Source: an uncultured Pseudomonadota bacterium
Lineage (GTDB): Bacteria > Pseudomonadota > Gammaproteobacteria > Methylococcales > Methylomonadaceae
Assembly: GCA_903875455.1 (NCBI GenBank)
Contig: CAIQWF010000004.1
Span: forward strand, 1 to 43,225
Length of the DNA: 43,225 nt
Direction of reading: 5' to 3'
Part shown: positions 6,948 through 27,781 of the stretch, piece by piece
Layout: every line of letters starts with the position of its first letter
Numbering within the stretch: position 1 is the first letter of the stretch
The notes under the pieces: model-generated
Databases searched by the model: none
The model's input: only the letters and a program-made list of their open reading frames with translations
Told to the model about the DNA's origin: nothing
Program-made: the position numbers and the translations under genes

Positions 6948-9900
6948 TTAATGATGCAAATGCGCTGACAACCAACGCTCGGCGACTTCTTTAATCATAC
7001 CTTTGCGTTGGGCGTAATCTTCCAGCTGGTCATCATTGATTTTACCGACGTTAAAATATTGTGATTCGGGATGGGAAAAATACCAGCCACTCACTGCGGC
7101 GGTCGGATACATAGCATAACTTTCAGTCAGCTCAATACTGGTGTTGGCGGTAACATCCAGCAACGCAAACAGTTTTTCCTTCTCGGTATGGTCTGGGCAG
7201 GCAGGATAACCAGGCGCCGGACGAATACCTTGATAAGCTTCAGAAATCAGCTCTTCCGGTGTATGGGCTTCATCGCCGGCATAGCCCCAATATTCTTTTC
7301 TTACTACCTGATGCAAATATTCAGCAAACGCTTCAGCCAGTCTGTCTGCCAAAGCCTTTAGTAAAATTGCGCTGTAATCATCAAAATCCGCTTCAAACTG
7401 GGCGACTTTTTCTTCAATGCCAATGCCGCTGGTGACTGCGAAGGCGCCGATATAATCGGCTTTGCCACTCTCAATCGGGGCAATAAAATCGGATAAACAA
7501 TAATTGGGGCGTCCGGGCGCTTTGACATTCTGCTGGCGCAAATGGTGCAGGGTTTCCAAAACCTCTGTGCGGCTGTCATCTCGATACAGCACAATATCAT
7601 CATCAACACTGTTGGCAGGGAAAAAGCCAATAACGGCGCGGGCGGTGAGCCATTTCTCATTAATCAGCTGATGCAGCATCACCTGGGCATCTTCAAACAG
7701 TTTGCGTGCATCTTCGCCGATTAATTCGTCATCAAAAATCGCAGGATAGCTGCCGGATAATTCCCAGGTGTGGAAAAAAGGAGTCCAATCTATAAACCAG
7801 ACCAAGGTATCCAGCGGGAAATTGTCGATGACCTTAACCCCCAAAAACGACGGTTTAACCGGCATACAATCGTCTGCCCAGGTAAATTTATTGGCACGGG
7901 CAGCTTCCAGAGTATGCTGTGGACTTTGGGCTTTGCGGCCTTTGTGATGCTCCCGTACTTGCGCATATTCAGTACGGGTTTTGGCGATAAATTCGTCTTT
8001 TAATTCCGGGCTTAACAAACTGCTGGCAACCCCGACGGCGCGGGAAGCGTCAGGCACATAAAGCGTGGCACCGTGATAATGCTCTTCAATTTTCACTGCG
8101 GTATGCGCTCTGGAAGTCGTTGCCCCGCCAATCATTAACGGAATATCAAATTTTTGCCGTTCCATTTCCTTGGCAATATGCACCATTTCATCCAGTGACG
8201 GGGTAATCAGGCCGCTTAAGCCGATGATATCTACATTTTGGTCGCGGGCAGTTTTCAAAATCGTTTCCGCAGGCACCATCACCCCTAAATCAACCACTTC
8301 GTAGTTATTGCATTGCAATACTACGCCAACAATGTTTTTGCCTATATCGTGGACATCGCCTTTCACCGTGGCCAGCAGAATTTTACCGTTGCGTTGCCGT
8401 TCGCTTTCTGCACTGGCATCCATAAACGGCATCAGATAGGCGACGGCTTTTTTCATCACCCGCGCCGATTTCACCACTTGCGGCAGAAACATTTTTCCCG
8501 CCCCGAATAAATCGCCAACCACGTTCATGCCGTCCATCAGCGGCCCTTCTATAACTTCCAGCGGTTTTCCAGCTTCGATACGTGCCTGTTCTGTGTCTTC
8601 GTCGATAAAGTCAGTAATCCCTTTCACCAACGCATGTTCCAAACGCTTACTGACTGACCAGCTACGCCATTCCAAATCCTCTTTTTTCGCGACATGACCA
8701 TCGCCGCGATATTTTTCAGCGATTTCCAACAGCTTTTCGGTGCTTTCAGGATTGCGGTTTAATACCACATCTTCAACTACATCACGCAATTCAGCCGGAA
8801 TATCTTCGTAAATTGCCAGCTGTCCGGCATTCACAATTCCCATGCTCATCCCGGCTTTCACCGCATGGTATAAAAACACCGCGTGAATCGCTTCCCGCAC
8901 CGGATTATTGCCACGAAACGAGAAGGATACATTCGAGACCCCGCCAGAAATCAGCGCATGTGGCAAAGTGCGCTTTATTTCTGCGGTCGCCTCTATAAAA
9001 TCCAGTCCATAGTTATTGTGTTCTTCAATGCCGGTGGCGATGGCGAAAATATTCGGGTCAAAAATAATATCTTCAGGCGGAAAACCAACCTGTTCAGTGA
9101 GAATTTTGTAGGCACGAGTGCAAATCTCGATTTTGCGTTCTTTGGTGTCAGCTTGGCCGATTTCATCAAACGCCATCACAATTGCCGCCGCACCGTAACG
9201 ACGGATTAATTTTGCGTGTTTGATAAAGTTTTCTTCGCCTTCCTTAATCGAAATCGAATTGACAATGCCTTTGCCCTGAATACACTTTAAGCCCGCCTCC
9301 AGGATTTCCCATTTTGAGGAGTCCAGCATAACCGGCACTTTGGCAATATCCGGCTCGGAAGCAATCAGGTTCAAAAACCGCACCATCGCTTCTTTTGAAT
9401 CCAGCATCCCTTCATCCATGTTGATGTCGATAATCTGTGCGCCGTTTTCAACCTGTTCTTTCGCCACCGCTAACGCCGCTTCATAATCTTCAGCAACAAT
9501 CAGGCGTTTGAAAATTGCCGAGCCGGTGACGTTGGTTCTCTCGCCCACGTTGACGAATAATGAACTGGGCGTGATGTTCATCGGTTCCAGGCCAGCGAGG
9601 CGACATTGTTTTTCCAAATCAGGAATTTTACGCGGTGGATATTTACTTACGGCACTGACAATTGCCCGAATGGTCGCAGGCGAGGTTCCGCAACAGCCGC
9701 CGATAATGTTCAGATAGCCATTTTTAGCCCAATCCGCCAACTCTTCCGCCATTTGTTCCGGGGTTTCGTCATATTCTCCAAACTCATTCGGCAAGCCGGC
9801 ATTTGGATGGGCGGAAACGTAAGTGTCAGCAATGCCGGATAATTCCTCAATATATTGCCGCAGTTCTTTTGCGCCTAAGGCACAGTTGAAACCAAACGAA

Positions 9901-10619
9901 ATCGGCTCAATATGGCGCAGTGAATTCCAGAACGCAGCTGCGGTCTGTCCCGACAATGTCCGTCCTGACGCATCGGTAATGGTGCCGGAAATCATCACCG
10001 GCAATTTATAACCGATGGTTTCAAAGTAGGAGTCCACCGCGAAAATCGCCGCTTTCGCATTCAAGGTATCGAAAACCGTTTCAATCAAAATAATGTCTGC
10101 GCCGCCGTCAATCAGACCTTTCGTTGCTAACGTATAAGTTTCGACCAGCTCATCAAAACTGATATTTCTAAAGCCTGGATCGTTTACATCCGGTGACATT
10201 GACGCAGTACGGCTGGTCGGGCCTAACACACCGGCCACAAAACGCGGTTTTTCCGGGGTTGCCAAGCTCATTTTGGCACAGACTTCTTTAGCAAGCCGCG
10301 CTCCTGCGACATTTAACTCATAGACCAAATCCTGCATCTGGTAGTCAGCCATGCCGATATTGTTAGAGTTAAAAGTATTGGTTTCGAGAATGTCCGCGCC
10401 CGCATCCAGATAGGCTTGATGAATCGCCTGAATAATTTTCGGTTGCGTTAGTGACAGTAAATCATTATTGCCTTTTAAATCGGAAGCCCAATCTGCAAAA
10501 CGGCTGCCACGATAGTCTTTTTCTTCCAGCTTGTAACTTTGAATCATGGTTCCCATTGCACCGTCCAAAAACAGGATGCGTTGGGCGAGTAAGTCTTTGA
10601 GTAAAGTATTGTTATTCAT
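6948..10619 (-). CDS. metH: Cobalamin-dependent methionine synthase MetH
   Basis: A protein of 1223 residues that transfers the methyl group of 5-methyltetrahydrofolate through cobalamin to homocysteine. Domain order is: homocysteine-binding with the zinc cysteines in [10 protein letters not shown] and GGCCGTSP (about 1-320); pterin-binding with [13 protein letters not shown] (about 350-610); the cap and B12 domains with the DxHxxG motif [10 protein letters not shown], whose His ligand falls at residue 757 and so aligns with His759 of E. coli MetH; and the SAM-binding reactivation domain with [17 protein letters not shown] (about 900-1223). I chose the ATG at 10619 ([11 protein letters not shown]...). 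The frame stays open 28 codons further, but those residues have no counterpart in the family. No cobalamin riboswitch is visible in the short upstream region. Confidence 0.96.
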
Positions 10620-10745
10620 AAATTTGATAGAAAACAGGGTGGAAAAAGTTACAAGGGAAACATGATAATCGCTGAATATAATCATTGCGTGAGGTCTAAT
10701 CAAGCGATATTGTTAGAGGTACTTTTTAATTTTCAGGAAAACATC

Positions 10746-10931
10746 ATGGCGCAACCATCTATTTTTCAAGTCATAAAAAGCGTTTTAGCCGCTTTTGCTG
10801 GCATACAAAGCAAAGAAAACAGGGAGTTGGATTTTACCGAAGGCAAGATGAGTCATTACATTGTGGTAGGAGCGATAGTCACGGTTTTATTTATTGCGAC
10901 TTTGGTTTTTGTAGTTTCCATGATTATTTAA
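10746..10931 (+). CDS. DUF2970 family small membrane protein
   Basis: A peptide of 61 residues starting at ATG 10746 (MAQPSIFQVIKSVLAAFAGIQ). The first half is an amphipathic stretch followed by QSKENRELDF, and the second half is a single transmembrane span (about 38-60, IVVGAIVTVLFIATLVFVVSMI) at the very C terminus. This matches DUF2970, a short proteobacterial family with no known function. The frame could be extended upstream to a non-ATG start at 10662, but those 28 codons run through the metH promoter region and lack family similarity. It is divergent from metH, with about 125 bases between the starts, and is followed by a strong terminator. Confidence 0.85.
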   Translation: MAQPSIFQVIKSVLAAFAGIQSKENRELDFTEGKMSHYIVVGAIVTVLFIATLVFVVSMII

Positions 10932-10937
10932 ACAAAA

Positions 10938-10970
10938 AAGCCCAAGCTTTAATTTAAACTTGGGCTTTTA
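10938..10970 (+). terminator. Rho-independent terminator after the DUF2970 gene
   Basis: AAGCCCAAG (10938-10946) pairs with CTTGGGCTT (10959-10967) across a 12-base AT loop, followed by TTTATTTT. The upstream run of A bases makes it usable from the opposite strand as well, where it would stop transcripts from the convergent 11013-11453 gene. Confidence 0.88.
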
Positions 10971-11012
10971 TTTTGAACCAGACAATTGCCTTAAGTGCGG
11001 CAAATCGTGGCG

Positions 11013-11453
11013 TTATTCTTCTTCTTTTGCAGATGTGCTTTTAAAGCTGCCACCAATACTGGCAAACATTTCACTAAGGCCGCTGAATAAATTAGCTGGA
11101 GTAAAAGCTGCTTTTAAAATAAATTTGACTCTGACTACGGCAACGGCAAGAAAACCTGCAACTGCCGGCATTAATTCAAAAAATGTTGATAAAAGAACAC
11201 CTTTGAAGCCTTCAAAGCCACCTTCATTTTTGCGGTCACCAACGCTCATCAAATCTCTTTCGTATCCTGGCGTACTTTCGCTGCCTCTAAACGACTCTAA
11301 AGTAGCTACATCGATGAAATAAAACAATCCTACCACTCCCAAAAAAACTACACCTGATACAGCTACCCAGAACAGCAAGTTTTCGGTTTTTTCTCTCAGC
11401 GCTGTTTGATAAACCCAAATCACAGCAAATACCATTATTATCCCACTAATCAT
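11013..11453 (-). CDS. Small membrane protein of unknown function
   Basis: A protein of 146 residues that I do not recognise. It has hydrophobic spans at about 1-17 (MISGIIMVFAVIWVYQT), 27-47 (LLFWVAVSGVVFLGVVGLFYF) and 86-112 (LLSTFFELMPAVAGFLAVAVVRV). Between the second and third lies a hydrophilic loop with SESTPGYERDL and a Gly/Asp-rich stretch. The C terminus is acidic (SAKEEE). The ATG has an excellent GGAGG on its own strand, 10 bases upstream. It lies 31 bases downstream of the exported-protein gene 11485-11862 on the same strand, so the two probably form an operon. The region looks AT-rich compared with metH. Confidence 0.6.
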   Translation of the reverse strand: MISGIIMVFAVIWVYQTALREKTENLLFWVAVSGVVFLGVVGLFYFIDVATLESFRGSESTPGYERDLMSVGDRKNEGGFEGFKGVLLSTFFELMPAVAGFLAVAVVRVKFILKAAFTPANLFSGLSEMFASIGGSFKSTSAKEEE

Positions 11454-11484
11454 TTTTTTATTACCTCCACTTAAATTGTTTTTA

Positions 11485-11862
11485 TTAATTTGATTTTTTC
11501 ATGAAAAAATATAAGCCTGGACAGCCAAGAATCATTTCTGCATCTTTTTTCTCAACAGTGCAACGATCAAATTTACCAGGGCGACCAGATCTTTCTTTCA
11601 TGATAGCACCATCTTCGATGTAATATTTTGTGGTTAAATCCAAAGTTTTGGTACGAGGATCTGTCGAAACTGCATGAAGCACTCCATCTGTTCTAAACTC
11701 CCACAAATTATCAATCATCTTTTTTTCTTTATCTTTGCTAGCACTTTCTGCCCACACTTTCCACTTGCCGACAACACCCAATGTGTCTTTGACTGCTTCT
11801 GCATTCGCAGCTGTTATAAACAAAAACGAGGACAGTGTCAGAATTGTTATTTTTTTAATCAT
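11485..11862 (-). CDS. Small exported protein of unknown function, possibly lipocalin-like
   Basis: A protein of 125 residues with a Sec signal peptide (MIKKITILTLSSFLFITAANA, cleavage after ANA near residue 21), predicted periplasmic. The mature part reads GVVGKWKVWAES...DNLWEFRTDGVLHAVS...KYYIEDGAIMKE. The sequence of a G-x-W opening strand, a W-x-F-x-x-D-G turn and Y-x-I-x-D-G-x-I is typical of short lipocalin-like (META/DUF-type) barrels. Two cysteines near the end (DRCTVE and LGCPGLYF) could pair. I chose the ATG at 11862 because GGAG lies 8 bases before it; a GTG three codons earlier overlaps that Shine-Dalgarno. It is the first gene of a probable two-gene operon, transcribed away from the 43-residue membrane peptide. 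Confidence 0.6.
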   Translation of the reverse strand: MIKKITILTLSSFLFITAANAEAVKDTLGVVGKWKVWAESASKDKEKKMIDNLWEFRTDGVLHAVSTDPRTKTLDLTTKYYIEDGAIMKERSGRPGKFDRCTVEKKDAEMILGCPGLYFFMKKSN

Positions 11863-11980
11863 GGTTATCACTCCAAAAGTAGCCAGTCACCATACTACTC
11901 ATATTCTGGCAATATGGCAATTTATGTGCTATTTTTACTTGCAGCAAGATTGGATTGTTCAAAGCTTATCGTGATTTAGC

Positions 11981-12008
11981 TTGACTTTAAATTCTTCTAA
12001 AGTAACAT
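11981..12008 (+). promoter_or_regulatory. Candidate sigma-70 promoter of the 43-residue membrane peptide
   Basis: TTGACT (11981-11986) lies 16 bases before TAACAT (12003-12008); a slightly shifted reading, CATATA, is also possible. Just downstream, TGCCA (12020-12024) and TGGCA (12031-12035) form a small inverted repeat in the leader. The 212-base divergent region 11863-12074 must also hold the leftward promoter, which I could not pin down. Confidence 0.45.
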
Positions 12009-12074
12009 ATAAATTCGGATGCCACAAAAATGGCACGTTCATTTACTTACAACACATAAAAAGGTAGGACACTC

Positions 12075-12206
12075 ATGGGAGCGATCTTAGACGTAACAGA
12101 AATGTTAAAAGAACCAGCAGGCATGATTACAGCATTAGTCGTTATCGCAGCTGGTTATTTTTTCGTAAAATGGGTTTTCGCTGAAGACTCTAGCGACGAA
12201 GAATAA
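12075..12206 (+). CDS. 43-residue single-span membrane peptide with acidic C terminus
   Basis: The frame MGAILDVTEMLKEP... encodes 43 residues and ends in AEDSSDEE. A short amphipathic N-terminal helix (residues 1-13) precedes one transmembrane span of about 19 residues (AGMITALVVIAAGYFFVKWVF), and the tail is strongly acidic. The ATG has AGGTAGGA five bases upstream, a candidate promoter lies further upstream, and a good terminator sits 25 bases after the stop. Together these make a complete one-gene transcription unit rather than a chance frame. It is divergent from the exported-protein operon. I do not recognise the family. Size and layout are reminiscent of filamentous-phage major coat proteins or of small membrane-complex subunits, but coat proteins have a basic rather than an acidic C terminus. 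Confidence 0.7.
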   Translation: MGAILDVTEMLKEPAGMITALVVIAAGYFFVKWVFAEDSSDEE

Positions 12207-12231
12207 GCTTTACCGATTTTATCTATACCGT

Positions 12232-12271
12232 AAGACCGTGGCAAAGTAATTTGCGGCGGTCTTTGTTTTTT
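12232..12271 (+). terminator. Rho-independent terminator of the 43-residue peptide gene
   Basis: AAGACCG (12232-12238) pairs with CGGTCTT (12257-12263), with an inner GGCAAA/TTTGC stem, followed by TGTTTTTT. Confidence 0.85.
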
Positions 12272-12344
12272 AAGTGTCCAGATTTCTTTAATTACCCCAC
12301 ATCCTCTATACTTTATATATTTTTGCCACGCTTTTCGTCCAAAA

Positions 12345-14249
12345 ATGTATAAATTAATCAGCTCCAAATTACTCGCCTCTTTAAAACTTCAAGTTCCTGC
12401 CACTGCTTTAGGACTATTCCGGTTGTTATTTGGACTGGTTACTTTGCAGGAAATTCTGTTTTTGCTCTATTTTAATCATTTGATTTTTGATCCCATTCCT
12501 TATCTGGATGTTGAATTTCCAATGATTCATTTTTTTCTGTGTTTATGGGCAGTGATTGCGGCTTTTGTTGTAGTCGGCTACCGCTACCAGACCAGCATTA
12601 TCGCCAATTATGTTTTCTGGCTGGTCTTTGTTAATTTCACCCCGATGCAGCGTGATTTTGATGGCGGTTTTGACCTGTTTATGACCGGGGCCAATCTGTT
12701 TTTGATTTTTTTACCGGCGGATAAAGCATTTTCAGTGGATAATTTACGCCGGAAATTAGCCAATCCTTTTGTGCATTATCAGCACTATCAAAAACCTACC
12801 GTCAGCGTTTTGGCTTATTCCCTGCCGGTTATCATTTGCCTGGGTTTTTTGTATTTTGACTCGGTGATTCACAAAATGTTTGCCCCTCATTGGCGTAATG
12901 GCTTGGGCGGCTGGTTGCCGGGAACCATGCCCTATTATGTTTCGGCAATTAATATGTCATGGATATTGAATATCGAAATTTTGCAAAAAATCATTGGCTA
13001 TACCATTCTGATTTTTCAATTTACCTTTCTGTTTTTCGTACATATTCGCCGTTTGCGGATGATTTATGTGCTGATTGGGGTGAGCTTACATCTAAGCATT
13101 ATTTTCACTCTGAATATTTATCCGTTCGGTTTTGGAATGCTGATTTTCTACACGCTGGTGATTCCATTTTCCTATTATCGCAAACTTGGAGAATGGCTCA
13201 CTGCCAAGCAGCCTTCCTTAACCGTGTTTTATGACAAATTGTGCCCGTTGTGTAATCGCACGGTGCTAACCCTAAATCATTTTGATATTTTTCACTGTAT
13301 CGACTTTAAAGACGCACAAACGTTTGCCAAAAACTACCCTGCCTTGCAAGCAATAAATGAAAAAACCTTGCTGACCGATTTATATGCTCTGGATGCTAAA
13401 AATCAGAGTTACGCCGGGGTTGCTACTTATGCACAGATTTTAATCAAGATGCGTTATCTGGCGTTATTCGGCTATTTATTAAAAATGCCTGGGGTGTTTC
13501 ATCTGGCTCAGCATTATTATCGAAAAATAGCCGACTCCAGAGCACGTCTCAATTGCGACAGTGCTTGCCAAATTGAAAAAGTTGTCATAAAACCAACCTT
13601 GTATGACAGTCTCTTCATGGTTTCTGACGAGAAAACATTAAAAAAACACAACCGCATTTTAAGCAAAATAGTGCTGATTTTGTGCCTGTTACAACTCAAC
13701 AGCTCGATTCATTATGGCTTGCTGTATCGTTTCAAAATAAATACCCAGCAAACTCCAATCACAGCAGCATTGGCGGCGGCAAGTAATGCGCTGATTATGT
13801 TCTCCGGCTCTTTTGCTGGTATTACGCCTCATGCCTTATATTTACATGATCATTTTCATGGATATAACCGGATTTTGGCAATTACTTATATAGATGCCCA
13901 AGGCAAAGAACAATGGCTGCCGTTTATAAATCAGGAAGGCCGGCTGCTTGCGCCGAATTGGGGGCGAGTACAATCAATGTGGGCAAATATTGCTGTCACC
14001 CCAAAAATTGACAGGCATCGTTTGAATAAATTTATTATGAAAGTCACTGCTTTTTGGGGAATCAAGTCAGGTCTTGCCTTGAATGCCACGGTTTTCAACA
14101 TCAAAATGAAAAAAATCCAGTCTTCAGATAAGTGGGTTTATGATCTGCGAAATCGGAACTTGTCAGGCAGCTGGACGACAGTGGGGACAGCAAAATGGCA
14201 GGATAAAGATGTTGATATTCAAATGGTTAAAGATATAGGTCAGCTTTAA
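12345..14249 (+). CDS. HTTM-like multi-pass membrane protein fused to a DCC (DUF393) thiol domain
   Basis: A protein of 634 residues. The N-terminal half (about 15-275) has some seven to nine hydrophobic spans and the texture of HTTM proteins, the domain shared with vitamin-K-dependent gamma-carboxylase, including the MQRDFDGGFDLFMTGANLFLIFLP segment and HKMFAPHWRNG. Residues about 292-400 form a DCC (DUF393) domain: the usual YDGxCxxC signature appears as FYDKLCPLCNR, with cysteines C300 and C303, suggesting a redox-active thiol pair. The last 200 residues contain one hydrophobic segment (near 440-458) and a presumably extracytoplasmic tail without recognised domain. The start at 12345 has no good Shine-Dalgarno, so it is uncertain by a few codons. 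The biochemical role is unknown; a membrane thiol oxidoreductase is possible. Confidence 0.7.
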   Translation: MYKLISSKLLASLKLQVPATALGLFRLLFGLVTLQEILFLLYFNHLIFDPIPYLDVEFPMIHFFLCLWAVIAAFVVVGYRYQTSIIANYVFWLVFVNFTPMQRDFDGGFDLFMTGANLFLIFLPADKAFSVDNLRRKLANPFVHYQHYQKPTVSVLAYSLPVIICLGFLYFDSVIHKMFAPHWRNGLGGWLPGTMPYYVSAINMSWILNIEILQKIIGYTILIFQFTFLFFVHIRRLRMIYVLIGVSLHLSIIFTLNIYPFGFGMLIFYTLVIPFSYYRKLGEWLTAKQPSLTVFYDKLCPLCNRTVLTLNHFDIFHCIDFKDAQTFAKNYPALQAINEKTLLTDLYALDAKNQSYAGVATYAQILIKMRYLALFGYLLKMPGVFHLAQHYYRKIADSRARLNCDSACQIEKVVIKPTLYDSLFMVSDEKTLKKHNRILSKIVLILCLLQLNSSIHYGLLYRFKINTQQTPITAALAAASNALIMFSGSFAGITPHALYLHDHFHGYNRILAITYIDAQGKEQWLPFINQEGRLLAPNWGRVQSMWANIAVTPKIDRHRLNKFIMKVTAFWGIKSGLALNATVFNIKMKKIQSSDKWVYDLRNRNLSGSWTTVGTAKWQDKDVDIQMVKDIGQL

Positions 14250-14309
14250 GTAAGCTTTGGTATTGCCTCGACACTTCAAATTATGATATAAATTTTAGTG
14301 TGCTTAATT

Positions 14310-14321
14310 CTTAGTACATTA
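14310..14321 (+). promoter_or_regulatory. Shared upstream element, copy 1
   Basis: CTTAGTACATTA occurs here, 49 bases before the ATG of the first lipoprotein gene, and again at 14657-14668, 45 bases before the second. A TGCTTA shortly upstream is also shared. The block probably contains a common promoter or regulator site duplicated with the genes. Confidence 0.55.
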
Positions 14322-14358
14322 TAAATAAATAACAAATGCAAAATTTTTGGAGGATATT

Positions 14359-14487
14359 ATGAAAAAATTAGCGTCATTGATCGCATTGGCTTTAGTGATT
14401 GTTGGTTTAACAGGTTGCATGGATAACCCAGATGGCTCTAAGCAATCAACCAGACCAGCTCCATCAAAAGATAGCAAAACTTACTAA
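14359..14487 (+). CDS. Tiny lipoprotein, tandem copy 1
   Basis: The frame encodes 42 residues: a lipoprotein signal peptide (MKKLASLIALALVIVGLTGC) with the lipobox LTGC and C20 as the lipidated cysteine, followed by only 22 mature residues (MDNPDGSKQSTRPAPSKDSKTY). GGAGGA lies four bases before the ATG. The residue after the cysteine is Met rather than Asp, which predicts sorting to the outer membrane by the Lol system (inference). The mature part is hydrophilic and disordered-looking. It resembles entericidin-like or other small lipoproteins only in size. It has a close paralogue at 14702-14833 and a decayed one directly after that. No function can be assigned. Confidence 0.85.
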   Translation: MKKLASLIALALVIVGLTGCMDNPDGSKQSTRPAPSKDSKTY

Positions 14488-14656
14488 ATTACACTTTCGC
14501 TTGGTTGTTTTCCAAGTGAGATGATTATCAAGAGTGTTGCGCTGAGAGTGTGGCACTTTTGATTTTGGTTTACGAAGAATGTAAAACGGTTGTAAAAGGC
14601 TTGTTATTGCTTTAGATAGTTTGAGCAATAATATTAGCTTTCGTAGTGCTTAAAGA

Positions 14657-14668
14657 CTTAGTACATTA
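14657..14668 (+). promoter_or_regulatory. Shared upstream element, copy 2
   Basis: The second copy of CTTAGTACATTA, 45 bases before the second lipoprotein gene. The rest of the 214-base space between the two genes is poorly conserved apart from the flanking TGCTTA, so this block stands out. The same space also holds a G-U-tolerant hairpin (TCGCTTGG / CCAAGTGA, near 14499-14522) without a T-run. Confidence 0.55.
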
Positions 14669-14701
14669 ATAAAAAATATAAAACCTTTATTGGAGAATGT
14701 T

Positions 14702-14833
14702 ATGAAAAAAGTATTATCACTTGTTGCAATGGCCCTGATGTTTGTTGGTTTAACAGGCTGTATGGATAATCCAGACGGCTCTAAACAATCAACAAGAGAC
14801 CAACCATCGAAAGTAGAAAATCCTTATAAATAA
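14702..14833 (+). CDS. Tiny lipoprotein, tandem copy 2
   Basis: The frame encodes 43 residues: signal peptide MKKVLSLVAMALMFVGLTGC with C20 in the lipobox, then MDNPDGSKQSTRDQPSKVEN and PYK. Residues 16-32 are identical to copy 1 (GLTGCMDNPDGSKQSTR), while third-codon positions have diverged, showing that the protein rather than the DNA has been conserved. GGAGA lies five bases before the ATG. The C-terminal ends of the two copies differ most. It probably has the same location and a related role to copy 1; duplication with its own upstream element suggests dosage or separate control. Confidence 0.85.
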   Translation: MKKVLSLVAMALMFVGLTGCMDNPDGSKQSTRDQPSKVENPYK

Positions 14834-14943
14834 CGTTAAAACAGCTTATTCGTGTTTTTCTGATTGCTGGTTTTAGTAGATGTATTGATAATCCAAGCCA
14901 CTCTAAACAAAAAGTCAGCGAGCATGTTAAGAAAAACAACTAA
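14834..14943 (+). pseudogene. Decayed third copy of the tiny lipoprotein
   Basis: Immediately after copy 2, an open frame ends at TAA 14941-14943 and reads ...LIAGFSRCIDNPSHSKQKVSEHV and so on. The segment AGFSRCIDNPSHSKQ aligns with VGLTGCMDNPDGSKQ of the intact copies, including the cysteine at 14881-14883. There is no ATG/GTG start with a Shine-Dalgarno, the signal peptide is shortened by about four residues, and the lipobox Gly is replaced by Arg. It therefore looks like a degraded paralogue. It is followed by a strong terminator. Confidence 0.7.
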
Positions 14944-14966: not shown

Positions 14967-15005
14967 AAGAGGCTAGTAAATTTATTGACTAGCCTCTTTT
15001 TTTTT
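14967..15005 (+). terminator. Rho-independent terminator of the lipoprotein cluster
   Basis: AAGAGGCTAGT (14967-14977) pairs perfectly with ACTAGCCTCTT (14988-14998), followed by seven or more T. A textbook intrinsic terminator for the rightward transcripts. Confidence 0.95.
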
Positions 15006-19392: not shown

Positions 19393-22300
19393 ATGTTGTT
19401 AAATATTGATTTGCTGCAACCTAGAACAAAACCTAACCTCAAGGCTTTTTTGCAAAGCGTGGCGTTGTTATGTTTGCTTGTCTGTTCGTTGCCGTTGCTG
19501 GCAGAGACAAAACCGCCTTTGGAAAAAGTTTCATTGCAGCTGAAATGGCTACATGCGTTTCAGTTTGCAGGCTATTACGCCGCTAAAGAAAAAGGCTTTT
19601 ATGCCGCAGAAGGGCTGGATGTTGATATTAAACAACGAACGCCGAATCTTAATAATATTGAACAACTCATTCAAGGCAACTCCGAATATGGAATAACGGA
19701 CGCAAGCCTGTTGCTGGAAAGATTAAATGGCAGGCCGGTGGTGATTCTGGCGACTATTTTTCAACACAGTCCGGTAGTGTATATCAGCCTGAAAAGTTCC
19801 GGGATTATTAGCCCGTATGAAATGAAAGGCAAACGGGTGATGGATGGCATTTCAGCCAAAGCTACACTACATGCCATGTTGTACGAGGCAGGTGTTGAAA
19901 CACAAGAATTCAGCCATGTAGATCAGAATTTTAAGGCAGAAGATCTGATTAATGGCAAAGTCGATGTTATAGCTGCTTATCTTACCGATCAGCCGGATTA
20001 TTTTAGACAGAAAAAAATCGAAATTAACATTATTGACCCGCGCAATTATGGAATCGATTTTTTAGGTGACAATTTGTTCACCAGTGAGCAGGAAATCCGC
20101 CTGCATCCTGAACGAGCGCAGAAATTTTTGCGGGCTTCGTTAAAAGGCTGGGATTATGCTCTGAAACACCCTGAAGAAATCATTCAGCTTATTCTGAAAA
20201 AATACAATCCAGAAAAACGCTTAACAGAGCAACATTTGCGGTTTGAAGCGGCTGAAACCGCGAAAATGATTTTGCCGGATATTATCCCGATAGGCAGTGC
20301 CAGCATTGGTCGTTTCCAGCGCATTGCAGAAATCTATTTGCAACTGGGGATGGTGAAGTCGCTGGATAATCTGCAAGGTTTTATTTATCAGCAATCACAA
20401 AGCAGCCAGTTAAAACTGACTCAGGAAGAAAAAGCCTGGCTCCAGACACATCGAGTGATTCGGGTCGGGATTGACAGAGATTTTCCGCCATATGAATGGC
20501 TCGACAGTAACGGCAATTATCAAGGTTTGAGTGCTGATTACCTTAAACAAGCCGAACAAGCGTTAGGGGTAAGGTTTGAGATTATCAAGGATAAAAGCTG
20601 GGTCGAAATACTGGAAATGGCCAGGCATGAAAAGCTGGATATGCTCACGGACCTCAATCAAACCAAGGAGCGCAGCCAATATTTAAAATTTACCCAACCC
20701 TATATTGAAATACCTGTCATTATCGTCAGTCATGAAAAAAACGGCTTTATTGGCAATCTGAAAGCTCTAAAAGGTAAGCGCGTGGCCATTGAGCGCGGCT
20801 ATTTCATGCAGGAAATACTCGCCAGCTCTTATCCTGAAATTCATTTGACTCCAGTCAAAAGTACCTTGGAAGCCTTGCTGATGGTAAATAACGGTCAAGC
20901 CGATGCCTATGTAGGTGATCCGGCTGTCGCAAATTACACCATTAGAAAAGCAGGGCTGATAAATCTTATCTATGCCGGTGATAGTGGTTATAAAAGTCAG
21001 CATCGGATGGCGGCAACCAAAGCTAGTCGGCCTTTGACAGGCATTTTGACTAAAGTGTTGAGCAAAATTCCCGAATCTGAAAAGCAGGCCATTCAAAACC
21101 ATTGGATGAGTTTGCAGGTTGAACAGGGAGTAAAAACTGAAACCTTGGTTATTTACGCAGAAATCATACTTGCGGTATTTTTTTTGGCGCTGATTTGGAA
21201 TATAAATTTGCGACGTGAAATAAAACACCGTAAACAGATAGAGGCGGCGCTGCGCGAAAGTGAAAACGCTTTTTATCATCTGTTTGAATATTCTAAAGAC
21301 CCAACCTTACTCATCAAAAACGGTCGTTTCATCGACTGCAATCTTATCGCAGTAACCATGCTGGGCTACCAGTCAAAATCCGAGCTTATTAGCCGCAGTC
21401 CTGGCGAATTATCACCTGAATACCAGCCGGACGGCAGGCTTTCCAAAGAGAAAGCGGCTGAAATGATGGAAATTACGGTGCGGGAAGGTTATCACCGCTT
21501 TGAATGGATGCAAATCCGCGCTGATGGCTCAACTTTCCCTATCGAAGTTTCATTAACGCCGATGACAATGAACGGAGAACTTATTCTCCATGTCTGTTCA
21601 CGCGATATTACTGAGCGCAAGCAAATAGAAGCGGCATTAATTAAAAGTCGCGATGAATTATTGCATTATTTCGAGCAACCGCTTATCGGAATGCTGACTT
21701 CCTACCCTGATAAAGCAACGCTCAACGTTAATCAGTGTTTTTGTGACATGTTTGGCTATAGCAAAGAGGAAATGCAGTCTCTCAATTGGGCAAAAATTAC
21801 CCACCCCGACGACCTGGGAGCAGATGAAAGTTATTTTCGCCGGACATTACGCGGCGAGATTGATTCCTATCAAATGGAAAAACGCTATATTCACAAAGAT
21901 GGGCACACTGTTTATGCACATCTAGCAGTGAACTGCGTACGCAATGCCCAGAACCAGGTGGAATATCTGATTGGTATGGTGCTGGATATTAGCAAGCGCA
22001 AACAGGCAGAGCTGGCACTACAGCAAAGCGCAGAACAATTGAAACTGGTTCTGGATGGTGGATATATCGGTTTTTGGGACTGGAATATTCTCACCAGTCA
22101 GGTGGAGCGCAATGCAATCTGGGCGCAAATGCTGGGCTATACATACGAAGAGATTCAACAGACTACTCAGCAGTGGACAGATTTTATTCATCCTGATGAC
22201 CGCGAAAAAGCCTGGCAGTCCATCTATGAGGTTTTGGAAGGGCAGCAAACCTATCATGCTGTCGAATACCGGATGTTGCATAAAGATGGCAGCATTCGCT

Positions 22301-24744
22301 GGATATTCGACCATGCCAAGATTGTGCAACGCGACGCTGAGGGCAAGCCTGTTCGGATGAGCGGTATCCATATCGATATTACCGAGCGTAAAAAAATAGA
22401 GGAAATATTGCAGCGCAAAGAGCAGATGCTGTCTGAGTCTCAGCGCATCGCCCATATTGGCAGTTGGGCTATGGACCTGACAACCGGCCAGCTTAGCTGG
22501 TCGGATGAGATGTATCGAATTTATGGCGTAACAGCAGAAATCTTTGGCCACTCGGTGCCGGCATTGGTTGAGTTGATTTATCCCGATGATAGACCCTTGA
22601 TGGAAAAATGGATAGGCGACTGTTTGGCAGGAAAGAAACCGGCTGAGCTGGATTTTCGGATAGTGTTGGCAGACGGCAGCATTCGTTTTATTCGTGGCAG
22701 GGGCGAAGTGCAACGGGACAAAGACGGCAAAGCTTTGCGGATGGTGGGTAGTGCACAGGACATTAGCGAACGCAAACAGGCTGAAACTGAGCTACGCATT
22801 GCGGCGATTGCCTTTGAGTCGCAGGAAGGGATTATCATCACGGATGCCGAGCATACTATTTTGCGGGCAAACCAGGCTTTTAGCCGAATTTCCGGCTACA
22901 GCGCCGAAGAGGTGATAGGCAAAACCCCCGGCATGTTTGCTTCAGGTTTGCATGATGAAGAATTTCATGCGGCCAAGTGGAGGACTATTGAGCAAACCGG
23001 TAGCTGGGAAGGCGAAATGTGGAACCGGCGCAAGAATGGTGAAATTTATCCTGAATGGCTGACAATTGCCGCAGTCAAGAATGATAGCGGTATTATCACT
23101 CATTATGTTGCTACCTTTATTGATATTACCGAACGTAAGCTAGCAGAACAGGCCATGCAGGAAGCCGAACTAAAAGCCAATCTTGCCAATCAGGCCAAAA
23201 GTGAATTTCTGGCCAACATGAGCCATGAAATCCGTACCCCGATGAATGCGATTATCGGCATGGCGAAATTGGCGCTGCGCACGGAATTAACCCCGAAACA
23301 AACCAACTACCTGAATAAAATTACTTATGCCTCGCAATCCTTGCTGAGTATCATCAATGATATTCTGGACTTTGCCAAAATTGAAGCAGGCAGGCTGGAG
23401 CTGGAGTTATTACCGTTTTCACTGGATGAGTTGCTGCATTATCTTTCCGACATTATTGATTTAAAAGCCAAACAGAAAAATATTGTGGTGGTAACTTTGG
23501 TGAATGAAAAAACGCCGCGCTGGCTGATTGGCGATACCTTGCGTCTGGGGCAAATTCTGATTAATCTGGTTAGCAATGCGGTGAAATTTACCGAAAAAGG
23601 CCGGATTATTGTCTCGGTTACGCCGGAAGAACTTAACCCGGAAACAGTACGGCTGCGCTTTTCCGTGCAGGATAGCGGTATTGGCATGAGTTCAGAGCAG
23701 ATAGAGAGGCTGTTTCAGGCTTTCTCACAGGCGGATAGCTCCATTACCCGCAGATATGGCGGCACAGGTTTGGGATTGTCTATCAGCAAATCACTGATTG
23801 AAATGATGGGCGGAGAGATTCGGGTGGAAAGTACGCCAGGGCAGGGCAGTACCTTTAGTTTCACCGTGCTGTTGGGTATTCCTGAAGCACCGCCGCCGTT
23901 GATTACCAGAGCCAGCAGAGAAAATAGCGCCAATATTTCAGCCTGCTTAAGCGGACGCAAGGTGTTGCTGGTTGAAGATAACGACATCAATCGTGAGCTG
24001 GCAATCGAACTTTTGAGCGGGCTTGGGATTAAGGTGGAAGTTGCCGAAAATGGCCGGGAAGGGGTAGAGCGGGTTTTCTCGGAACCGTTTGATCTGGTGA
24101 TTATGGATGTGCAAATGCCGGAAATGGATGGTTTGACTGCGACCCGATTGATTCGCGCTAACGGTCGGTTCGCCAGTTTGCCGATTATTGCCATGACCGC
24201 CAACGCCATGACCGGCGACCGGGAAATTACTTTGGCGGCGGGGATGAATGATTACCTGGCCAAGCCGATTATGCCGGAAAAACTGACCGAACTCCTGATA
24301 AAATGGCTGGACGGGGCAACCGGGCGGGCAGAATCATCTCCACAATGGCCAGAACAAAAGCGACAGGCCGTTGCCGAAGTTGAACTTCCTCAGCAGTTGC
24401 CACCCTTTGACATACCGGCAGCGATGTTGCGGGTCAGAAATAACGCTACATTACTCTATAAACTGTTGACCATGTTTCGGATTCAGTACACGGAAGCACT
24501 GCCAAAACTAAAAAAACTGCTTCAGGATGGAGATTATCATGAAGCCAAAAGGTTTGTGCATACCCTGAAAGGGGTCGCCGCAAATTTGGAAAACCGCGAA
24601 CTGGTTGAAGCCGCATCGGCTTTGGAGCACACTTTGCACGAAGAAAATTTTTCTGCACTTCCTTTGTTGCTGGAAGGATTGGACAAGGCGTTAACGCCTG
24701 CTATCCAGGCGGTGCAGTCATTGAAAAAAATTGATGAAATTTAG
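19393..24744 (+). CDS. Giant hybrid histidine kinase 1: NMT1/THI5-like + SBP_bac_3 sensor, five PAS, HisKA, HATPase_c, REC, HPt
   Basis: A membrane sensor of 1783 residues. After a signal/anchor segment (about 18-37) comes an NMT1/THI5-like periplasmic binding domain (about 43-330; VSLQLKWLHAFQFAGYYAAK), then a second binding domain of the SBP_bac_3 family (about 352-575; VGIDRDFPPYEW). A transmembrane helix spans about 584-602, followed by five PAS/PAC units (from about 623, 752, 878, 1012 and 1134). The kinase core has the phospho-accepting H1278 in MSHEIRTP, N-box NLVSNAVKFT and G2 box GTGLGLSIS. The receiver has VLLVEDN and phospho-acceptor D1572 in MDVQMPEMDG, and the HPt has H1723 in HTLKGVAANL. 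All relay residues are present, so a full His-Asp-His phosphorelay can run on one chain. It overlaps the start of kinase 2 and is probably co-transcribed. The ligand is unknown. Confidence 0.9.
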   Translation: MLLNIDLLQPRTKPNLKAFLQSVALLCLLVCSLPLLAETKPPLEKVSLQLKWLHAFQFAGYYAAKEKGFYAAEGLDVDIKQRTPNLNNIEQLIQGNSEYGITDASLLLERLNGRPVVILATIFQHSPVVYISLKSSGIISPYEMKGKRVMDGISAKATLHAMLYEAGVETQEFSHVDQNFKAEDLINGKVDVIAAYLTDQPDYFRQKKIEINIIDPRNYGIDFLGDNLFTSEQEIRLHPERAQKFLRASLKGWDYALKHPEEIIQLILKKYNPEKRLTEQHLRFEAAETAKMILPDIIPIGSASIGRFQRIAEIYLQLGMVKSLDNLQGFIYQQSQSSQLKLTQEEKAWLQTHRVIRVGIDRDFPPYEWLDSNGNYQGLSADYLKQAEQALGVRFEIIKDKSWVEILEMARHEKLDMLTDLNQTKERSQYLKFTQPYIEIPVIIVSHEKNGFIGNLKALKGKRVAIERGYFMQEILASSYPEIHLTPVKSTLEALLMVNNGQADAYVGDPAVANYTIRKAGLINLIYAGDSGYKSQHRMAATKASRPLTGILTKVLSKIPESEKQAIQNHWMSLQVEQGVKTETLVIYAEIILAVFFLALIWNINLRREIKHRKQIEAALRESENAFYHLFEYSKDPTLLIKNGRFIDCNLIAVTMLGYQSKSELISRSPGELSPEYQPDGRLSKEKAAEMMEITVREGYHRFEWMQIRADGSTFPIEVSLTPMTMNGELILHVCSRDITERKQIEAALIKSRDELLHYFEQPLIGMLTSYPDKATLNVNQCFCDMFGYSKEEMQSLNWAKITHPDDLGADESYFRRTLRGEIDSYQMEKRYIHKDGHTVYAHLAVNCVRNAQNQVEYLIGMVLDISKRKQAELALQQSAEQLKLVLDGGYIGFWDWNILTSQVERNAIWAQMLGYTYEEIQQTTQQWTDFIHPDDREKAWQSIYEVLEGQQTYHAVEYRMLHKDGSIRWIFDHAKIVQRDAEGKPVRMSGIHIDITERKKIEEILQRKEQMLSESQRIAHIGSWAMDLTTGQLSWSDEMYRIYGVTAEIFGHSVPALVELIYPDDRPLMEKWIGDCLAGKKPAELDFRIVLADGSIRFIRGRGEVQRDKDGKALRMVGSAQDISERKQAETELRIAAIAFESQEGIIITDAEHTILRANQAFSRISGYSAEEVIGKTPGMFASGLHDEEFHAAKWRTIEQTGSWEGEMWNRRKNGEIYPEWLTIAAVKNDSGIITHYVATFIDITERKLAEQAMQEAELKANLANQAKSEFLANMSHEIRTPMNAIIGMAKLALRTELTPKQTNYLNKITYASQSLLSIINDILDFAKIEAGRLELELLPFSLDELLHYLSDIIDLKAKQKNIVVVTLVNEKTPRWLIGDTLRLGQILINLVSNAVKFTEKGRIIVSVTPEELNPETVRLRFSVQDSGIGMSSEQIERLFQAFSQADSSITRRYGGTGLGLSISKSLIEMMGGEIRVESTPGQGSTFSFTVLLGIPEAPPPLITRASRENSANISACLSGRKVLLVEDNDINRELAIELLSGLGIKVEVAENGREGVERVFSEPFDLVIMDVQMPEMDGLTATRLIRANGRFASLPIIAMTANAMTGDREITLAAGMNDYLAKPIMPEKLTELLIKWLDGATGRAESSPQWPEQKRQAVAEVELPQQLPPFDIPAAMLRVRNNATLLYKLLTMFRIQYTEALPKLKKLLQDGDYHEAKRFVHTLKGVAANLENRELVEAASALEHTLHEENFSALPLLLEGLDKALTPAIQAVQSLKKIDEI

Positions 24745-27700
24745 CGTTAAGCCCACGTTTAATCTGAGCCATTTGCTGCCGGTGCTGGTGTTATGCCTGT
24801 GCCTGGCGGTTACTTACTATTTGTGGAGTCTGGCTTATCAGTTTTCCAAACAAGAGCTGCAACAGCAGTTTGACTTTCGTGCTAATGAAATAGAAATTCT
24901 GATTAAACAGCGGCTACGGGCTTATGCTGAAGTTTTGCACGGTGGCCGCGGCTTGTTTATTGCCTCCGACACCGTTTCGCGTGATGAATTTAAAGTTTAT
25001 ATCAATGAACTGGATATCGAAAAATTTTATCCGGGGATTCAGGGAGTGGGTTTTTCAATCTTGATTCCCGCCGGGAAAAAACAACAGCATCTGGCTGCTA
25101 TTCGCAGTGAAGGCTTTTCTGATTACAACATTCGCCCGGAAGGTGTGCGCGAACTTTATTCGGCAATCATTTATATAGAGCCGTTTTCTGACCGCAACTT
25201 ACGCGCCTTTGGCTTTGACATGTACTCGGAAACGGTGCGTCGCACTGCCATGGACAGAGCCTGGCGCAATAATGAAATTGCTTTTTCCGGCAAGGTAACG
25301 CTGGTGCAGGAAAGTGGCAAAAATGTACAGGCCGGTTTTTTAATGTATCTGCCGGTTTACCGCAAAGGCGCTGATATTTCAACTCTGGCACGGCGATTGG
25401 CCAATTTTCGCGGCTGGATTTACGCCCCTTTCAGAATGGATGACTTTATGCAGGCGGTGCTGGAAAAAGAGAGCAAAATCAATCCTGATGTAGACCTGGA
25501 CATTTATGATGGCAAACAGCCTTTGTTTCAGGCTTTACTTTATAACCGCAATAACGACAGCCTGACAGAAAGCCAATCTGTTTTTAGTACCCGGAAACAA
25601 ATTGCTATTGCCGGGAATTCCTGGCTGCTGCATATCCACTCACACGCCGATTTTGAAAAGCAGATTGACTTAAGACAGGCTTATTTGACTGCCGGTGTCG
25701 GCATAGTGATTACCCTGATGCTGACCACCATTACCTGGCTGCTGGCGAATAGCCGCAGACGGGCATTTGCACTGGCGCAAAAAATCAGTGCCGACCTGAT
25801 AGAGCGGGAAACCCGCTATCAGCAAATGTTTGAAGGTAGCAGCAGTATTGCGGTGTTAATCGATTTGAAAAATGGCAACATTATTGATGCGAATCCAGCA
25901 GCCAGTTCTTTTTGGGGCTATAGCATCGAAAAACTGCGGACCATGAATATCGGCGAGATTGATACCCGACCGATAACCGAAGTATTGCCGCTGTTTGAGC
26001 TAATTCTATCAAAGTCGCAACATGTGTATGCCCAGCATCGCTTAAGCGACGGGCAGATAAAAGAGGTTGAAATCTATGCCAATGCCATTGTTTATCAAGG
26101 TCAGATGGTGATTCACTCGATTGTGCATGATATTACTACCCGCAAGCAGCAGGAAGAGGAAATCAGACGCTTGAGTGATTCGGCACTTAACAAGGCCAAG
26201 CTGGAAGCTGAAAAGGCCAATCGGGTCAAAAGTGAGTTTTTAGCCAATATGAGCCACGAAATCCGCACCCCGATGAATGCCATTACCGGTATGCTGCATC
26301 TGGCCCTGAAGACTGAGCTGACGGCGAAACAGCGCAATTACCTGAATAAAATCAGCTACGCAGCGCACTCCTTGCTCAGCATTATTAATGACATTCTGGA
26401 TTTTTCCAAAATTGAATCCGGCAGGCTGGAGCTGGAAACCGCGCCGTTTTCGCTGGATGAGGTTTTGCGTTATATCGCGGATATTGTCGAGATGAACGCC
26501 AAACAAAAAAACATTGTGGTGGCGACGCTGGTTAATGAAGGAACCCCGCGCTGGTTAATAGGCGATACTCTGCGGCTCAGTCAAATTTTGATTAATCTGG
26601 CAAGCAATGCCGTCAAGTTTACCGAACAGGGCAAGATTATTATTTCCGTGAAACCGGAACTGCGTGATGCAGAAGCCGTGGTGTTACGTTTTTCCGTGCA
26701 GGACAGCGGCATCGGCATGACCTCAACGCAAATAGAAAAACTGTTTCAACCTTTTTCGCAAGCCGACTCTTCAATCACCCGCCGATATGGCGGCACAGGA
26801 TTGGGACTGACTATCAGCAAACAACTTGTGGAAATGATGGGTGGGAAAATCCGTGTGGAAAGTGAGCCTGGAAAGGGCAGCACTTTTATTTTTACAATAA
26901 AACTTGGCATTGCCCAAAAGCCGGTTGCTAGTCATAAAACCGGACAAAGCCAACAAAATACCGTTGAAGATTTTAGTTGTTTAACCGGGCGGAAAATTTT
27001 GCTGGTTGAAGATAATAATCTTAACCGCGAACTGGCAACGGAATTGCTGACTAATCTGGGAGTTGTGGTTGAGATTGCCGAAAATGGCAGGGAAGCGGTA
27101 AAACGGGTTTTCAAAGAACCGTTTGATTTGGTGTTTATGGACATTCAGATGCCTGAGATGGACGGCTTGACCGCAACCCGCCTGATTCGTGCTGATGTGC
27201 GGTTTTCCAGGCTGCCGATTATTGCCATGACCGCGAATGCCATGACTGGCGACCGGAAAAACAGCTTGGAAGCAGGGATGAACGATCATATTAGCAAGCC
27301 GATTATGCCGGAAAAACTGGCGGCGGTTTTAAAGTTCTGGCTGACAAATGCAATCCCGGAAAAACTGCTGAAAAATCCTGTGCCGGCTCAAAAAACGCAA
27401 CAACCGCCGCCGCAGTTAAACTCCGGCATTCAACTTCCTGATTATTTGCCCTCTTTCAATATTGCTGTGGCATTGCAGCGGGCCGCTGACAGCCCGGAAT
27501 TGCTCAGGAAACTGCTGTTTATGTTCAATGACGAGTATCAAAATCTCATGCCCGAATTCAAAAAATACCTACAGGCCGGCGATTATGAAGAAATCAGACA
27601 AAAGGCCCATTCACTGAAAGGCGCGGCTGCAAGTCTGGAGGCAACCGAGGTAGTGGCAGTGGCCGCAGCCCTTGAAAAAGCCTGTTTTAACAAAGAAATA

Positions 27701-27781
27701 ACGGCAATCAAAGTGCTGGTGGATGAACTGGATAAAGCTTTAACGGCGGCCCTGCAAGCGATTCGGTCATTGAAAAACTAG
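24734..27781 (+). CDS. Hybrid histidine kinase 2: CHASE sensor, PAS, HisKA, HATPase_c, REC, HPt
   Basis: A membrane sensor of 1015 residues. I chose the ATG at 24734 (MKFSVKPTF); a TTG lies directly before it. It starts 11 bases inside the end of kinase 1, implying translational coupling. Transmembrane helices at about 14-34 and 315-338 enclose a CHASE domain (about 70-290; [18 protein letters not shown]). One PAS domain follows (about 365-470), then HisKA with H508 in [11 protein letters not shown], HATPase_c with [10 protein letters not shown] and GTGLGLTIS, a receiver with D803 in [10 protein letters not shown], and HPt with H959 in [10 protein letters not shown]. From HisKA to HPt it is closely similar to kinase 1, evidence of a tandem duplication followed by exchange of the sensor half. 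The extracellular ligand is unknown; CHASE domains in other proteins bind small molecules. Confidence 0.92.

Follow-up and report, generated by a model that had tools for sequence, protein, structure and literature searches.

LptM (YifL; PF13627 / NF047847) is a small lipoprotein that acts on an outer-membrane barrel from beside its anchor (PMC10567701). The lipoprotein family described here shares with it a very short length, a conserved segment directly behind the lipidated Cys, a variable C-terminus and a predicted sorting to the outer membrane, but has a mature motif of its own, D/N-x-P-D-G-x-K-Q. The entericidins EcnA/EcnB are likewise tandem lipoproteins of ~40 aa found in gammaproteobacteria; unlike them, our family is mostly present as a single copy with a hydrophilic mature part, and shows no sequence match to entericidins. 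With Lpp, the Braun lipoprotein, it has in common a short monocistronic gene that has strong signals and ends in a terminator of its own, whereas it is less than half as long, has no zipper repeats and mostly lacks a C-terminal Lys. At the RNA level, 5' stem-loops stabilise bacterial mRNAs (PMC7509114). The hairpin preceding our genes is like the ompA-type stabilising stem-loop in lying at the predicted extreme 5' end, far 5' of the Shine-Dalgarno sequence (PMC7509114), but the two are not homologous, and a stabilising role would be by analogy.

The lipoprotein genes of the window

The window, that is, the whole 43,225-nt stretch of DNA analysed, is a single contig of a 3.49 Mb genome (94% complete). 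It carries two intact tandem genes, whose products are MKKLASLIALALVIVGLTGCMDNPDGSKQSTRPAPSKDSKTY (copy 1) and MKKVLSLVAMALMFVGLTGCMDNPDGSKQSTRDQPSKVENPYK (copy 2), and a decayed third copy (Table 1). Both products begin with MKK...GLTGC, which has the short charged n-region, the hydrophobic h-region and the lipobox [LVI][ASTVI][GAS]C of a lipoprotein, the lipobox being LTGC in each. Their mature parts comprise 23 and 24 residues including the Cys, in agreement with an earlier note on this DNA, which had described two tandem lipoprotein genes with mature parts of 22-23 residues, once the Cys is counted. Over 32 codons, the copies differ by 12.0 synonymous and 8.0 nonsynonymous changes (dS 1.01, dN 0.116, dN/dS 0.115), such that 12 of the ~22 synonymous sites are changed and only 8 of the ~74 nonsynonymous ones. 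The two intact copies are therefore under purifying selection, as the note had supposed from their synonymous differences.

Copy 3 has lost its promoter, its hairpin and its ATG; its reading, ...LIRVFLIAGFSRCIDNPSHSKQKVSEHVKKNN*, has no in-frame start codon, and the lipobox glycine, whose loss had also been pointed out earlier, is replaced by R, while the mature CIDNPSHSKQKVSEHVKKNN is still in frame. A congener (G001) has an intact third gene (L054:5073-5213, MKKVLSVVSVALMIVGLAGCMDNPDGSKQTTK...), to which copy 3 can be aligned from the hydrophobic stretch through the stop to the terminator; from this alignment, the window has lost ~160 bp with the promoter region and start of the third gene. 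Judged by these lesions, copy 3 is a pseudogene. Window copy 2 resembles the congener's copy 2 in its core and the congener's copy 1 in its C-terminus (L054 4464-5213 vs 14359-14943), a mixed likeness that suggests gene conversion inside the array.

Table 1. Coordinates of the features at the lipoprotein locus (positions in the window).
Feature	Position	Strand	Remarks
GGCX-fold membrane protein with inserted DCC1-like thioredoxin domain (residues ~287-404)	12345-14249	+	association only
Predicted sigma-70 promoter, copy 1	14263-14292	+	-35 TTGCCT (14263-14268), 18-nt spacer
Extended -10 of copy 1, TGATATAAAT	14287-14292 (TATAAA)	+	predicted
5'-terminal mRNA hairpin, copy 1	14300-14317	+	arms GTGCT/AGTAC
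Shine-Dalgarno GGAGGAT, copy 1	14349-14355	+	from sequence; kept in relatives
Lipoprotein gene copy 1, intact	14359-14487	+	42 aa; predicted lipidation site Cys20
Terminator-like weak stem 3' of copy 1	14527-14563	+	consensus scan only
5' hairpin, copy 2	14646-14664	+	arms GTGCT/AGTAC
Lipoprotein gene copy 2, intact	14702-14833	+	43 aa
Decayed copy 3	14836-14943 (about)	+	alignment to the congener's intact third copy, L054:5073-5213
Intrinsic terminator ending the array	14967-15005	+	AAGAGGCTAGT / ACTAGCCTCTT, then T-run; strong

Distribution and conservation of the family

A single-copy query detected homologues in all 36 sampled genomes of the window's family (E 8e-19 to 2e-7), which excludes a chance ORF, and a family profile matched 225 of the 251 Methylococcales genomes at E<=0.05; the homologues on which the earlier note had made its reading depend are thus widespread, and the genes are real. 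Most other families of the order gave matches as well; there the sequences are more diverged, mostly MKK...VGCGNSPDGDKQ with the core form CGNSPDGDKQ, and symbionts of gills, sponges and snails have homologues too. Across the class (369 genomes), no match outside the order was better than E 1e-4, and the weak matches at or beyond that value lie nearly all within longer ORFs and are signal-peptide-like. When 84,980 species genomes were scanned, 80 loci matched, labelled as Methylococcales, as symbionts that are methanotrophs or as unclassified Gammaproteobacteria. In families f7 and f8, pmoA is present but a lipoprotein homologue was not detected; the lipoprotein is therefore not strictly needed for methanotrophy, and a strict coupling to methane monooxygenase is ruled out. 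As far as sequence searches can recognise it, the family is specific to the order Methylococcales and absent or unrecognisable in f7 and f8. Most genomes carry one copy, and tandem duplication and decay are recurrent. A comparison with plasmids gave no match, and we discarded a mobile element on that basis.

Throughout the order, the first ten mature residues keep the pattern C-x-[DN]-x-[PQ]-D-G-x-K-Q and are under purifying selection (family-wide median dN/dS 0.156). The signal peptide, of the lipoprotein type, has 19 residues, and the lipobox Cys is aligned throughout the family. In a set of 96 different sequences, mature parts are 16-27 residues long (34 in one) and contain a single Cys. 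They are hydrophilic, at a mean GRAVY of -1.0, include Pro and Gly, and lack aromatics in 86 cases; their C-terminal half is variable and ends in Leu in 74. Position +3 is D or N and position +6 is D in 95 of the 96, both being partly set by the search pattern, such that the order-wide alignment is the fairer evidence. The residue at +2, on which lipoprotein sorting depends by the established +2 rule, is M, L, G, I or N and never D, and the product is accordingly predicted to reach the outer membrane. Across families the mature core is kept and the signal peptide has diverged, which places the function most likely in the ten lipid-adjacent residues.

No Pfam family matched the lipoprotein at E<=1, NCBIfam gave only sub-threshold matches to the signal-peptide part, and we found no earlier description in open-licence papers. 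By these searches the family is undescribed, and Pfam and NCBIfam have no model for it, in line with the earlier note, whose author knew of no family with this mature sequence. The LptM model NF047847 scored 15.9 bits against a cut-off of 27.7, over the signal peptide only, and PF13627 had no hit; since PF13627 scores over its cut-off at a separate LptM-type gene of the same genome (G000:C20:32694-32753), a gene of this type being present in most relatives too, identity with LptM is ruled out. S-layer anchoring was set aside as well, as the papers on methanotroph S-layers that we consulted described no matching small lipoprotein.

A private, structured leader

Upstream of nearly every copy lies the series TTGCATC, 17-18 nt, TGATATAAAT, a few bases, GTGCTT, a loop of 4-12 nt and AAGTAC or GGCGCAC, and most family members have the layout TTGCAT-N17/18-TGATATAAAT, as at the copy 1 promoter. 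Copy 2 has kept the hairpin but, in contrast to relatives, has a degraded -10 upstream of it. The CTTAGTACATTA block, at 14310-14321 and 14657-14668, starts 49 and 45 bases 5' of the respective ATGs, exactly as the earlier note had reported; its reading as a stand-alone motif did not hold, because the block includes the 3' arm of a hairpin that is conserved at the predicted mRNA 5' end. Its extended form, GTGCTTAA-N-TAGTACATTA, occurs at only two sites in the 3.49 Mb genome, both at the window copies, with 0 matches for the controls.

When 111 upstream regions were folded, 104 reached -4 kcal/mol or lower no more than 34 nt from the predicted start, and the mean hairpin energy was -6.1 kcal/mol vs -2.1 for shuffled sequences. 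Swapping arms among 30 diverse representatives (<60% alike) changed the mean from -6.61 for own arms to -4.84 (sd 0.32, z = -5.5; 0/20,000 permutations). In 25 sequences picked by eye for diversity, both partners have changed in four of the five stem pairs (U-A to C-G, G-C to A-U, C-G to U-A) and 95.1% of the cells are paired; the covariation score was reached by 0/500 shuffles, and only 20-62% paired when the partners were slid. The leader is thus a structured 5' UTR with compensatory changes in its stem. Searched in 37 genomes, the pattern TATAAA..GTGCTT..AGTAC gave 10 matches, all at lipoprotein loci, so the leader is private to these genes, and a regulon site was ruled out.

Terminators lie directly 3' of most single-copy units, and the congener has one at the same position as that closing the array, with paired changes. 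The typical unit consists of a sigma-70-like promoter, the covarying 5' hairpin, a Shine-Dalgarno sequence, 37-43 codons and its own terminator, a layout that we read as a design for high steady output, the expression level being a prediction.

A candidate role at the outer membrane

We tentatively favour, at somewhat less than an even chance, an order-specific minimal outer-membrane lipopeptide that acts on an envelope partner and is LptM-like in mode. The lipoprotein is probably an abundant component of the envelope, as predicted from its gene and signal peptide. The 5' hairpin would shield the 5' end of the short mRNA, and this protection would yield much lipopeptide, constitutively; each of the window's two intact copies probably yields its product. 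Lgt, Lsp and Lnt would mature the lipoprotein and Lol would carry it to the outer membrane. There, by analogy with LptM, the lipopeptide would dock onto an envelope protein through its conserved anchor-proximal segment and serve as a small subunit of a structural or chaperone-like kind, and the variable tail would matter less. The observation made in the earlier note is confirmed and its interpretation partly supported, "partner of a larger envelope complex" being the best of its guesses. The family is an unnamed addition to the list of envelope components in organisms through which methane release is controlled; it is near-universal in gammaproteobacterial methanotrophs, reduced symbiont genomes included, and genes of 37-43 codons are easily missed in annotation.

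The same high-output design, the recurrent tandem duplication and the variable C-terminal half would also suit a bulk role resembling that of Lpp, in which an abundant acylated peptide, tuned by copy number, packs or spaces the outer membrane with no specific partner. We consider this possible but rather unlikely, since the order-wide core D/N-x-P-D-G-x-K-Q exceeds the needs of a spacer. Moreover, we found no heptad or alanine-zipper pattern, the C-terminal Lys needed for peptidoglycan linkage of the Lpp type is mostly missing (74/96 end in Leu), and the Lpp model NF040598 scored 15.0 bits against a cut-off of 43.

The upstream gene with a predicted GGCX fold

A 634-aa membrane protein, which combines a predicted GGCX (vitamin K-dependent gamma-carboxylase) fold with an inserted thioredoxin-like DCC1 domain, is encoded upstream of the lipoprotein on the same strand in 33/36 genomes of the window's family, no more than 700 bp away at 30 loci and typically at 102-168 bp, while the downstream neighbour varies among more than 35 gene clusters. 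Its AlphaFold (AF2) model (pLDDT 84) superposes on 9wfc with Z 24.0 (311 residues, 3.8 A) and gives Z 15.9-24 to 16 GGCX entries vs 7.0 for the best non-GGCX entry, and Foldseek also matched GGCX (E 4.5e-5), so that the predicted model has the GGCX fold. Pfam at E<=10 reported DCC1-like alone, with no HTTM or VKG_Carbox, and a search against PDB sequences at E<=10 found none, hence no GGCX chain. An invariant Lys177 lies within YFDS-x-[IV]HK, a segment that may resemble the one around K217/K218 of human GGCX (catalytic K218).

The lipoprotein could be a client modified or processed by this neighbour, with loose parallels in GGCX acting on tethered peptides and in SdpAB maturing the SdpC peptide; the frequent adjacency and the strong fold match to GGCX only speak for it. 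So does the near-confinement of the architecture to Methylococcales (4/274 class genomes, three of them Methylococcales), with f7 and f8 lacking both genes. Against it, the two genes are unlinked in f3, f4 and f6 and lie apart in G003 and G016, the lipoprotein having other neighbours outside the window's family; in G425 and G040 the enzyme is present but no lipoprotein was detected, and in G037 it is the other way round. Where draft genomes, including those of f1, lack both, assembly gaps may be the cause, the adjacency may reflect only a shared terminator, and the conserved core has no Glu (10/96 sequences have one within the first 12 residues). We regard a client relationship as improbable: the tie is a weakly supported lead, in which adjacency and fold show no action on the lipoprotein. 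It nevertheless offers a concrete candidate client for bacterial gamma-carboxylase relatives. A variant in which the enzyme modifies the D-x-P-D-G core itself, for example by carboxylating Asp, to yield an abundant modified and perhaps metal-binding lipopeptide in the outer membranes of methanotrophs, is more doubtful still.

In the draft genome G027 (C54:8894-10767), the GGCX-fold gene is broken by a frameshift and stops, while the lipoprotein gene is intact. The block 6948-14249, kept in many genomes of the family, comprises metH, a 146-aa membrane protein (11013-11453), a 128-aa secreted protein (11485-11871) and the GGCX-fold gene; neither of the two small proteins had a confident family.

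Less probable readings and further context

It is also quite improbable that the active product is the signal peptide or a released peptide, as in pheromone-type signalling. Within the window's family, conservation of the signal peptide comes close to that of the core (mean dN 0.26 vs 0.20), but the signal peptide diverges across families where the core is kept, and no exporter or receptor gene is consistently linked. An entericidin-like bacteriolytic lipoprotein or toxin/antidote pair, one of the earlier guesses, has slightly less in its favour: it is suggested by the small tandem lipoproteins of ~40 aa and by the position of the f6 gene near epmB/efp, the E. coli ecnAB genes likewise lying close to efp (a lead only). 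Set against this, most genomes have one copy, entericidin models are missing from the Pfam and NCBIfam matches, and the short, hydrophilic mature part, with Pro and Gly and mostly no aromatics, is not an amphipathic lytic helix. That the main conserved product is a regulatory RNA and the ORF is secondary is barely credible, as the short predicted transcript and conserved 5' hairpin are outweighed by coding constraint (dN/dS 0.12-0.16), the invariant lipobox Cys and the conserved Shine-Dalgarno sequence, and no Rfam family reached its gathering score.

The downstream neighbours include ilvA, whose identification was confirmed, and others that we take, by recognition of their sequences, to be rimO, pmoB and trkH-like genes. 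In several genera, a convergent pmoCAB operon lies 2-5 kb 3' of the lipoprotein (L132, L133, L164, L171, L172, L187, L189; genomes G007, G012, G030, G033), and ilvA lies there in the window's genus. In family f6 (L044, L052, ~4000) the lipoprotein gene adjoins an epmB-like gene, divergent from efp. Elsewhere in the window, 19393-27781 and 29476-34482 encode three very large sensor kinase-like proteins, two of them in tandem, with repeated PAS-type and receiver-like regions as recognised by eye.
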